The position numbers and the translations under genes are program-made. A DNA stretch of 64,000 nucleotides from Arthrobacter wenxiniae (lineage in GTDB: Bacteria; Actinomycetota; Actinomycetes; Actinomycetales; Micrococcaceae): NCBI RefSeq assembly GCF_013376105.1, contig NZ_JAAMFM010000003.1, positions 1-64,000 on the forward strand, given 5' to 3'. Positions 19,738 through 59,732 of the stretch are shown one piece after another. Within the stretch, counting starts at the first letter, position 1. Each line of letters begins with the position of its first letter. Below the pieces are notes generated by a model. It was not told the origin of the DNA. It worked only from the letters and a program-made list of their open reading frames with translations, and did not search any database.

Positions 19738-19801
19738 CAGGATGACAATATGGATATTTGAGGCCGATATATCGGGATCAAATGTCCATCGCGTCATCCT
19801 G
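19738..19801. repeat. Palindromic element B, copy 1 (upstream of the AbiEi/DUF559-like gene)
   Basis: Two 24-nt arms (19738-19761 and 19778-19801), matching at 20 of 24 positions, flank a 16-nt loop that itself contains the perfect palindrome CCGATATATCGG. The outer ends are CAGGATGAC/GTCATCCTG. The element is AT-richer than its surroundings. It sits between the divergent murA and AbiEi/DUF559-like starts, 123 bp before the latter, so it is not placed as a terminator. Its right arm is an exact inverted copy of the left arm of copy 2 at 20911-20934. Confidence 0.85.
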
Positions 19802-19864
19802 GGCGGCGGCACCCGGCGAGGGCGGCCGCGGCTGCCTCCTCCACAAGTCCAGCGGGGATCCCGC

Positions 19865-19873
19865 TTGTCCACA
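19865..19873 (+). promoter_or_regulatory. TTGTCCACA box before the AbiEi/DUF559-like gene
   Basis: One mismatch from the DnaA-box consensus TTATCCACA. It is 51 nt before the start codon; the paralogous gene at 56941 has a perfect TTATCCACA 52 nt before its start. The shared position suggests a functional leader element rather than chance, but its role is unknown. Confidence 0.45.
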
Positions 19874-19924
19874 ATTTGCAGGAACGGGCGGGCGGGCGCC
19901 GCGCAGCCGGAGAATCATGAACGC

Positions 19925-20905
19925 ATGACCATGCTGGAATTGCCTCCGTTCATCACTGCGCCAAGCAAATTCATGAACGAGCACGCCAGCCGACAACTTT
20001 CAAAGCGCGCTGACGCCGGCGAACTGGTCCGGATCCGGCAGGGCCTCTACCTGCCAACCGAGGTTTGGGCCGCACTAAAGCCGTGGGAGAAGCACCGCAT
20101 GAAGGTCCAGGCGGTGCATGAGCTGGCGCTGGCGCCGCCCGTGTTCGCGAGGGAATCCGCGGCAGAGGTCATGGGACTGCCCGTGGTCGGTATTCCACGG
20201 GACGTCCAGACGCTCGTCCCGCCGGGCACTCCCGGGGGTCAAAGCAGACGCGGCGTCCGGCGGATCATGGCTGTCGCAGGAGACCCTGAACCGTGGACCA
20301 TGTTCGGCCTCCTGGTGACCCGGCCGGTCGAGACGGCGCGGGACCTGGCCGTTCATTTGCCCCTCGAGCGGTCCTTGCCGGCCATGGACAAGCTGCTTCA
20401 ACGCAAGGCGCTGCCCGGCTCGCCCAACAACACCAACTTGGTGTTCGGCGAAGAGGACGTATGCGAATCTGCTGCCAGGCTGCCCTCGATGGCCAAACAG
20501 CGCCGGGTCCTGCGGGTGCTTGATGTTGCGGATGGAGGTTCGCAGTCCGCCGGGGAGTCGAGGAGCAGGGCGATCATGATCCTGAATGGATTCCCCCGGC
20601 CCGAGCTGCAGAAGCCCTTCCATGATGACCGGGGACTGATAGGTTACCCGGACTTCGACTGGGAGGAATTCAAGATCCTTGGCGAATTTGACGGTTTGGA
20701 AAAGTACTCTGCCCAGCGCTATCTCAAGGGAAGGACGCCGTCCGCGGTGGTCGTTGAGGAGAAAAAGCGGGAGGACCGCCTGCGGGCGCGGGGCTACACG
20801 GTGGTGCGGTGGATCTGGGACGACCTCAGGGACCCGCGCGTGCTTGTCGCCAAGCTGCACCGGGCGGGCCTGCCCTCCAACGCGGGACGCCGGGTCGGAC
20901 CATAG
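19925..20905 (+). CDS. AbiEi-like winged-helix protein with C-terminal DUF559/Vsr-like nuclease domain
   Basis: 326 residues. Residues ~10-100 resemble the winged-helix N-terminus of type IV antitoxins of the AbiEi family, with the hallmark GELVRIRQGLY at 32-42. The C-terminal ~90 residues look like a DUF559/Vsr-type PD-(D/E)XK fold: an acidic strand (YPDFDW at 241-246), GEFDG at 253-257 followed by a lysine-tyrosine, then EKKRED at 279-284 and a closing VVRWIW strand. No AbiEii-type nucleotidyltransferase toxin lies nearby, so it is not an ordinary antitoxin operon. The ATG at 19925 is used; the frame extends back into palindrome B1. It is enclosed by two inverted palindromes and has a paralogue at 56941 with the same plan. 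Function unknown; nuclease activity is an inference from the fold. Confidence 0.7.
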   Translation: MTMLELPPFITAPSKFMNEHASRQLSKRADAGELVRIRQGLYLPTEVWAALKPWEKHRMKVQAVHELALAPPVFARESAAEVMGLPVVGIPRDVQTLVPPGTPGGQSRRGVRRIMAVAGDPEPWTMFGLLVTRPVETARDLAVHLPLERSLPAMDKLLQRKALPGSPNNTNLVFGEEDVCESAARLPSMAKQRRVLRVLDVADGGSQSAGESRSRAIMILNGFPRPELQKPFHDDRGLIGYPDFDWEEFKILGEFDGLEKYSAQRYLKGRTPSAVVVEEKKREDRLRARGYTVVRWIWDDLRDPRVLVAKLHRAGLPSNAGRRVGP

Positions 20906-20910
20906 GCGCG

Positions 20911-20974
20911 CAGGATGACGCGATGGACATTTGAGGTCGATAAATCGGGATCAATTATCCATATCGTCATCCGG
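20911..20974. repeat. Palindromic element B, copy 2 (downstream of the AbiEi/DUF559-like gene)
   Basis: 24-nt arms (20911-20934 and 20951-20974) around a 16-nt loop. It starts 5 bp after the stop codon and ends 20 bp from the stop of the convergent ABC exporter. The loop differs from copy 1 at two positions and has the same direction, but the two arms are exchanged: the left arm here equals the inverted right arm of copy 1 at all 24 positions. There is no T-tract after the stem. Confidence 0.85.
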
Positions 20975-36624: not shown

Positions 36625-36688
36625 AATGCCGCCGCTCCCGCAAAATGCCGCCGCCATACCTGCGGCAGAATGCGGGAGCGGCGGCATT
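36625..36688. repeat. Palindromic element A, solitary copy
   Basis: 27-nt arms (36625-36651, 36662-36688), paired except for three or four inner positions, around a 10-nt loop ending ACCT. It lies between the convergent SRPBCC and monooxygenase genes, 7 and 29 bp from the stops, and the plus-strand side is followed by TTTT, so it can act as a terminator. Its arms share AATGCCGCCGCTCCCGC-type sequence with the two copies that flank the gene at 56941. Confidence 0.85.
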
Positions 36689-36717
36689 TTTCACCGCCGG
36701 GGCTCCGCGACCGGGAG

Positions 36718-56769: not shown

Positions 56770-56835
56770 AATTGCCGCCGCTCCCGCATTTTGCCGCCAG
56801 TAGACCTGCGGCAAAATGCGGGAGCGGCGGCAATT
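56770..56835. repeat. Palindromic element A, copy upstream of the second AbiEi/DUF559-like gene
   Basis: Perfect 28-nt arms (56770-56797 and 56808-56835) around a 10-nt loop CAGTAGACCT. It lies 105 bp before the ATG at 56941. The 240-bp stretch before it, from the SDR stop at 56529, has an open plus-strand frame with hydrophobic residues and no recognisable gene. Confidence 0.9.
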
Positions 56836-56940: not shown

Positions 56941-57945
56941 ATGAACAAACCGCACCTTATCCTTCCGGCAGATTTGAGACTGGTTGGACAGGACTCCAGG
57001 AAGCTCGCCCAGCTCAAGAACAAGGGAGAGCTGGTGCGCATCCGTCGGGGCGTCTACACGAAATCCGACGACTGGAACAGTTCCAGTCCGGCGCAGCAAT
57101 ATGGGCTCCGTGCTTCGGCGTTCCAGGCGCTGGCACCGCGCCAACCCGTCCTGTGTCATGCAACCGCAGCACGCCTGTGGGGACTGTGGATTGTCGGACT
57201 GCCGTCAAAGCTGCACGTGGTGACGGAGACCGCCACCAGCGGACGCAACAACAATGGGGTCATGCGTCACCTTGGATCGCTGACCAACGGCGTCGTGCAG
57301 TGCGGTCCGTTCCTGCTTACCGACAAGCCGACCACCACCGTGGCACTGGTCAAGGAGTTGTCGTTCCCTTTTGCGGTCGCTGTCTGTGACTCCGCCCTGC
57401 GATCCCCCGAGGCCGGCCAGGCTGTCAACGAATTCACGGCCGCTGGCTCCGGGCCCGACCTCCATGAGCCGTCATGGGAAACAGACGGCCCACAGGGACA
57501 GGCCGTTTCGGTGGACGGTCTGCGCGCGGCCGCCGGCCGTCTCGGCAGCAGGGCAGCCCGCGAACGAACCTTGGCGGTCATCAACTTTGCCTCGGACCTG
57601 TCCGGGTCTGCAGGTGAATCCATCAGTCGCGCCAAAATGTTCCAATTCGGATTTCCCGCACCAGTGCTCCAACAACCGTTTGTCCTGCGTGACGGCAGAA
57701 AGGCAAGAGTCGACTTTTGGTTTGAGGAACAACGGGTCGTCGGCGAATTCGACGGCAAGGGCAAGTATCTCCGCGCCGACTGGGGTGCAGGCATGTCCAT
57801 CCAGCAACGAGTGATGAAGGAAAAGGCCCGTGAGGACCAGATCCGCGCCCAGGGCGTCGGGTTTGTCCGTTGGGAATGGAAGGAAATGATGAACCGTCAG
57901 CAGTTCATCCACTTGTTGCGCCAAGCCGGGCTGCCCCAGAAATGA
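56941..57945 (+). CDS. AbiEi-like winged-helix protein with C-terminal DUF559/Vsr-like nuclease domain (second copy)
   Basis: 334 residues. N-terminal AbiEi-like winged helix with GELVRIRRGVY at 29-39, then ASAFQALAPRQPVLCHATAARLWGLWIVGLPSKLHVV. C-terminal PD-(D/E)XK-like region with VDFWFEE from residue 257, GEFDG at 268-272 then GKY, EKARED at 294-299 and FVRWEW. The two paralogues share all these blocks and little else. No toxin gene partner is next to it. ATG 56941 is used; the frame upstream runs through palindrome A. Codon use is less GC-extreme than in metG beside it. It is enclosed by two inverted copies of palindrome A. Nuclease activity and any link to the palindromes are inferred. 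Confidence 0.7.
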   Translation: MNKPHLILPADLRLVGQDSRKLAQLKNKGELVRIRRGVYTKSDDWNSSSPAQQYGLRASAFQALAPRQPVLCHATAARLWGLWIVGLPSKLHVVTETATSGRNNNGVMRHLGSLTNGVVQCGPFLLTDKPTTTVALVKELSFPFAVAVCDSALRSPEAGQAVNEFTAAGSGPDLHEPSWETDGPQGQAVSVDGLRAAAGRLGSRAARERTLAVINFASDLSGSAGESISRAKMFQFGFPAPVLQQPFVLRDGRKARVDFWFEEQRVVGEFDGKGKYLRADWGAGMSIQQRVMKEKAREDQIRAQGVGFVRWEWKEMMNRQQFIHLLRQAGLPQK

Positions 57946-59682: not shown

Positions 59683-59732
59683 CGACGCCGGCACCTGGGT
59701 GGGATGTACATCCCACCCAGGTGCCGGCGTCG
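59683..59732. repeat. 50-bp perfect palindrome between serA and metG
   Basis: 25-nt arms without a spacer, outer ends CGACGCCGGCACCTGG, centre GGGATGTACATCCC. No T-tract follows on either strand. It is in the 194-bp spacer between the serA stop and the metG start. Confidence 0.97.

Follow-up and report, generated by a model that had tools for sequence, protein, structure and literature searches.

A candidate protein-palindrome system: AbiEi-Vsr-like nuclease genes and their flanking elements in Arthrobacter wenxiniae and related actinomycetes

Cassette 1 of Arthrobacter wenxiniae, which lies in the 64,000-nucleotide stretch of DNA analyzed here (the window), consists of an intact gene for a predicted AbiEi-Vsr-like nuclease set between two near-identical, imperfect palindromes of 64 bp. 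We think it somewhat probable that genes of this kind and their palindromes form a protein-palindrome system, that is, a chromosomal, mostly vertically inherited nuclease gene that is flanked by its own elements of ~60 to 66 bp and that works in the manner proposed below. The pairing of gene and element, their geometry, the 19-bp plan of the elements, the co-variation of their arms, their dispersed copies, the inversions, the absence of the unit as a block, and the near-invariant active site are each supported by comparison of sequences. Binding, cutting, and dissemination of the elements are activities that the protein would have.

The cassettes of the window and the predicted protein

The features of cassette 1 are as follows (no strand is given for palindromes).

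19738 to 19801: type A element upstream of cassette 1, palindromic, with 26 of 32 arm positions paired
19925 to 20905, plus strand: cassette 1 AbiEi-Vsr-like nuclease gene, 326 amino acids, intact, assigned by model and fold matches
19937 to 20533, plus strand: AbiEi antitoxin-like part (residues 5 to 203), winged helix and C-terminal domain
20540 to 20878, plus strand: Vsr/EDxHD-type nuclease part (residues 206 to 318)
20911 to 20974: type A element downstream of cassette 1, palindromic

A gap of 123 bp separates the upstream palindrome from the ATG, and one of 5 bp separates the stop codon from the downstream palindrome; the gene-facing arms (19778 to 19801 and 20911 to 20934) are identical at 24 of 24 positions as reverse complements. 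On all these figures a preliminary description made from the letters of the window was exact. When the two copies are aligned over 66 to 71 nucleotides, they agree at 86% as inverted repeats and at 83% as direct repeats. The inverted-repeat pair of the preliminary description is thus present at cassette 1, but the pair is not strictly one of terminal inverted repeats, and across the family the orientation of the flanking pair varies, often fitting better as direct than as inverted repeats. A reading of the flanking pair as terminal inverted repeats was rejected because its orientation is not fixed. Two block-shuffled versions of the window contain no palindromes at the same scan threshold.

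An AlphaFold2 model of the cassette 1 protein, built with 36 sequences, has a pLDDT of 87.8 and a pTM of 0.86. Residues 5 to 203 of the model match an AbiEi antitoxin (6y8q_A; Z 11.3, rmsd 6.5, 173 residues aligned), and the nuclease part matches the catalytic domain of I-Bth0305I (3r3p_A, over residues 208 to 318; Z 11.0, rmsd 2.4) and Vsr (1cw0_A; Z 8.9). Six residues (E211, D256, K260, E279, R282, and E283) are invariant across 69 homologous proteins, and D243 and E254 are conserved in 68 of them. Based on the model, an AbiEi fold and a nuclease of the Vsr/I-Bth0305I type are fused in this protein, and the conserved acidic, almost invariant active site of the EDxHD/Vsr type is predicted to be in place. 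An HUH Y1 transposase (TnpA-REP) was not seen in the cassette 1 protein by fold matching or by Pfam. Sequence models match the family weakly: the Pfam matches are to AbiEi_4, MTES_1575, and DUF559 alone, the AbiEi_4 match to the cassette 1 protein falls below the model cut-off, and a PADLOC AbiEi model matches the same protein at 8.8e-5. PADLOC AbiEi models also match 35 of 36 relatives, as would be expected of a classic AbiE type IV toxin-antitoxin or phage defense gene. However, the neighbors of cassette 1 are murA (EPSP_synthase) and an ABC transporter gene, no AbiEii nucleotidyltransferase toxin partner is adjacent to the gene (the neighbors were checked at cassette 1), and a nuclease domain is fused instead, so that we regard such a role as very improbable.

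A paralogous gene with palindromes of its own lies farther along the window, and other homologues lie elsewhere in the host genome.

36625 to 36688: orphan (dispersed) type B element, a third copy that stands alone
56770 to 56835: type B element upstream of cassette 2, a palindrome
56772 and 56791, 19 bp apart: motif TTGCCGCC in the upstream type B element, mirrored in the opposite arm
56941 to 57945, plus strand: cassette 2 paralogous AbiEi-Vsr-like nuclease gene, 334 amino acids
57961 to 58024: type B element downstream of cassette 2, a palindrome
Contig C1 of the host genome: type C gene
C7:29683 of the host genome: type D gene

Cassette 2 and its palindrome pair are real, as had been described, and the type A and type B palindromes are unrelated in sequence. 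The earlier count of two cassettes was an understatement, since the host genome contains at least six homologous genes. Clear palindromes flank four of the six, and the type differs from gene to gene: A at cassette 1, B at cassette 2, and C and D at the genes listed above. Of the remaining two, the homologue at C7:86622 has a strong direct flank repeat without a clear palindrome, and the one on C78 has neither. The window also contains a perfect palindrome at 59683 to 59732, which is not aligned in G006 or G009; it was excluded from the element count because its arms are just 25 bp, shorter than those of the family elements.

Gene-element pairing and inheritance across genomes

Homologues are present in all 23 genomes of the genus. 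Matching repeats in the 5' and 3' flanks were detected at 50 of 70 homologues versus 8 of 242 neighboring control genes (Fisher p=6e-33). Within the genus set, 67 of 72 homologues have at least one element and 49 have both. The preliminary description had named homologues without palindromes as evidence against the pairing; such genes do exist, and they are a minority, with 5 of 72 having no element at the thresholds used. The median element of the genus is 64 nucleotides long; the upstream one ends ~125 bp before the start codon and the downstream one starts ~15 bp after the stop codon. The elements of the family are 60 to 66 bp.

A second set of loci, taken from genome_contigs and covering Arthrobacter, Sinomonas, Paenarthrobacter, Pseudarthrobacter, and Psychromicrobium, has the repeat pair at 63 of 80 loci. 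Because six of these loci overlapped the genus set, the tests of pairing and of 19-bp spacing were redone without them, and the pair is found at 59 of the remaining 74. The flank pair also extends to more distantly related families of the class, where many loci, but not all, have it; loci L301 and L311, with implausible full-flank matches, were excluded from this class-wide comparison. The search for related loci was built on a closer subgroup, as the full alignment has no sufficiently conserved stretch. Within the class, 212 of the 297 genomes sampled, representing 95 of 115 genera, encode members of the protein family, commonly several paralogues each. Two records titled Sporosarcina beigongshangi (L226 and L228) contain Arthrobacter-like family members, and the name may not fit the sequence.

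The similarity of the 5' and 3' elements has a median of 0.70 within a locus and 0.145 between loci, and element similarity tracks protein identity (Mantel r 0.51, with 0 of 2,000 permutations as high). Taken alone, the Mantel correlation mostly reflects common descent, since 60 of 63 similar-element pairs share flanking DNA. The census in genus, family, and class nevertheless supports the earlier proposal that protein and palindrome belong together and co-evolve, and this support comes more strongly from the dispersed copies, the co-drift of arms, and the shared 19-bp spacing than from the Mantel r.

Most of the genes occupy a few shared sites. Nine gene groups have flanks common to several species, the largest being the murA site (15 loci) and the cassette 2 site (14 loci). 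Two of the nine shared sites show an inversion of the cassette with the flanks still co-linear, and in the one case mapped, the breakpoints are at the elements; ordinary recombination between the repeats could produce such an inversion. In two genomes, the close relative G014 and G007, murA adjoins the ABC gene, with neither the gene nor the palindromes between them; absence of the unit as a block, which the preliminary description had proposed to look for in relatives, is therefore observed. More distant species carry the cassette at the murA site, and loss in G014 is therefore as likely as G014 never having had it. No half-element was recognized at the empty site of G014 or G007. Neither a target-site duplication, at the G014 junction or elsewhere, nor a cleanly empty single-element site came to light, the intergenic DNA being too diverged; at the single-element empty sites, which are those of G006 copies in L128 and those in L014 and L015, the flanks are likewise too diverged for precise junctions. 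In G013 (C141:431629-432009), a broken remnant of a cassette 1 gene with stop codons lies between murA and the ABC gene, and no palindrome was found near it in L045.

These observations bear on the possibility that gene and both palindromes are mobile as a unit, as a transposon or homing endonuclease element, with the orphan elements as solo remnants. The absence of the whole unit in G014 and G007, the presence of cassette-1-like genes at another shared site (G003, G011, G017, G019, and G020), and the match of the nuclease fold to a homing endonuclease are all consistent with such a selfish cassette. Against it stand the concentration of genes at the shared sites given above, the variable orientation of the repeats, and the near absence of matches on plasmids (5 of 72,556) with none in phage records, as well as the fact that orphans far outnumber genes for type A and for the element type of G002 described below. 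We judge a selfish cassette to be quite unlikely.

Architecture and dispersal of the elements

Elements from different sites have no overall sequence likeness, yet in each arm a word of ~8 bp recurs exactly 19 bp on. In 60 loci, the recurrence at 19 bp has a mean of 5.55 matches in 8 versus 2.85 in shuffled sequence (z 18.5), and no other spacing from 9 to 26 has a |z| of 4 or more. The result is replicated in 52 further loci from which the overlap was removed, with z 19.4 at 19 bp and at most 2.7 at other spacings. In the class-wide comparison, which has 11 arms, the recurrence is raised at spacings of both 19 bp (z 5.3) and 20 bp (z 3.9). Relative to the element center, the motif occupies about -29 to -22 and -10 to -3, so the full element holds four copies. 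The strength of the repeat differs between the cassettes of the window, being weak in cassette 1 (5 of 8) and perfect in cassette 2 (8 of 8). No foot motif is common to the elements inspected.

The two arms of an element at one site agree at medians of 0.83 to 0.96, whereas elements at the same site in different species agree at ~0.6, which is near random, at three of the four sites examined. In a set of 22 type A copies, both sides have changed at 11 of 27 pairs, and the covariation score is 0.176 versus 0.125 for shuffled copies (0 of 500 shuffles as high). Template switching could also give rise to this co-variation, without any protein.

Type A copies are confined to 3 of the 23 genomes (G000, G006, and G009), which are the genomes with a cassette 1 protein at least 83% identical to P0001, and the host genome has further type A copies away from the paralogues. 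Of seven G000 copies, three can be matched to a counterpart in the set of G006 copies retrieved. In G006 (C1:3427475-3427777, L097), an additional type A element lies upstream of the cassette 1 orthologue, in partly duplicated GC-rich sequence; it looks like a gain after the split from G000. Type B elements occur in several genomes, and at the orphan type B site, G006 and G009 also have an element after the same left flank. Around 36625 to 36691, the DNA shared by G000 and G006 extends up to the orphan element and diverges shortly beyond it, as if a rearrangement had ended at the palindrome. Type D is represented in the host genome by its two flanking copies only, with none dispersed.

The gene of G002 at the murA site has an element unrelated to type A that is found in ~20 places in G002 and in neither G000 nor G006. 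About a dozen copies of this type are present in G012, and no cognate gene was found near the ten G012 copies examined. The copies are more diverged in G012 than in G002 (1.7 versus 0.65 mismatches per 21-nucleotide arm, p=0.011), which may reflect decay after gene loss. The G012 copies speak against a protein-palindrome system, as do the lack of dispersed type D copies and the weak 19-bp repeat of type A. A 5-kb stretch of G012 (L193) that holds one G002-type copy also holds, at 1057 to 1116, a dispersed copy of the type found beside the gene that G012 itself carries at the murA site (L042). In the cases tested, copy number is ~0 to 20 per type. A count of elements in fetched DNA of the same versus other genomes (8 versus 29 matches, ~5-fold per base) was discarded, because some of the copies are orthologous.

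Of 38 copies tested, 37 are extragenic as called by a simple GC3-based gene caller, with 16 between convergent genes and 4 between divergent ones. A preference for convergent positions would suit terminators, supercoiling sites, or similar host features that lie near the genes by chance or convenience. However, the same locus-specific sequence is present on both flanks and is lacking at control genes, the 19-bp plan is largely particular to these elements, most other long palindromes (456 kb) lacking it, and an Rfam search of the window returned two tRNAs only and no RNA-family match to the palindromes. We attach very little probability to this explanation.

The palindromes could instead be binding sites of an AbiEi-like autoregulator, with the scattered copies as a small regulon and another role for the nuclease half. 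AbiEi is known as a repressor of its own promoter, acting on a palindrome in which a 3-bp spacer separates two 23-bp inverted repeats (PMC3985639), and the upstream element is in the promoter region. This explanation does not account for the matching element just past the stop codon, for the preference of copies for convergent over divergent gaps, for the turnover of copy sites between close species, or for the almost invariant active-site residues, and we consider it unlikely.

Relation to known systems and proposed mode of action

The closest likeness is to REPtrons, or REPIN-RAYT systems (TnpA-REP), in which the gene is flanked by palindromes that are also scattered extragenically (PMC8266576, PMC3116915, PMC8049555). 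In both, each gene has its own element type, the gene is chromosomal and vertically inherited, and element presence follows the gene. Flanking palindromes of a gene's own are found in the genus and at further loci, and extragenic dispersal of the cognate palindromes is found for types A, B, and G002, not for type D. In contrast, RAYT is an HUH tyrosine transposase rather than an AbiEi fold with a Vsr-type nuclease, and REPs are 20 to 50 nucleotides long with a conserved tetranucleotide (GTAG-type) foot and hundreds to thousands of copies, whereas the present elements, as described above, are longer, have four motifs and no common foot, and are few. Because enzyme and element both differ, the family does not belong to the REPtrons, and we infer a system that is analogous, not homologous, to REPIN-RAYT.

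Other comparisons are partial. AbiEi antitoxins share the fold of residues 5 to 203 and bind long inverted repeats, but the present protein has an additional C-terminal nuclease and no AbiEii partner at cassette 1, and its elements are also located 3' of the gene and elsewhere. I-Bth0305I and Vsr share the nuclease fold, and I-Bth0305I dimerizes on a target of nearly 60 bp (PMC3943268); unlike I-Bth0305I, the present gene is not phage or intron borne, and its presumed targets flank it rather than being interrupted by it. Some family members weakly match the models of the Pfam DUF559/REase_MTES_1575 proteins. Our search of the open-access literature turned up no report that connects DUF559 or AbiEi proteins with palindromes at their flanks and no paper describing a palindrome-flanked AbiEi-Vsr system, and the novelty of the system is relative to that scope. 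In a REP survey of 2025 (PMC12306157), palindromes are counted for an Arthrobacter, and neither a nuclease nor a RAYT is mentioned.

Based on the binding of a palindrome by AbiEi (PMC3985639) and the long target of I-Bth0305I (PMC3943268), we propose that the protein binds the motifs of its element and nicks it. The AbiEi half, as dimers, would bind the ~8-bp motif, of which there are four per element in most types (two per arm, 19 bp apart and mirrored). The nuclease half would then nick or cut the element, perhaps in an extruded hairpin form, and repair or strand transfer at the breaks would lead to elements being copied, converted, inverted, or lost. In this way, cognate copies would reach extragenic sites, and the gene itself would remain where it is.

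Annotation of the family to date ends at "AbiEi antitoxin" or "unknown function." We give an even chance to the broader view that dispersed palindromes maintained by a nuclease evolved in bacteria a second time, independently of REPIN-RAYT and convergent with it. In this view, AbiEi-Vsr nucleases recognize a palindrome of four motifs with a 19-bp spacing through a site-specific code and disseminate it across the genomes of Actinomycetes. If true, scattered palindromes would have a dedicated partner that is not a RAYT, which would suggest that this lifestyle arose twice. With its many natural protein-DNA pairs, whose motifs diverge within one fixed geometry, the family would make the co-evolution of such pairs directly testable.
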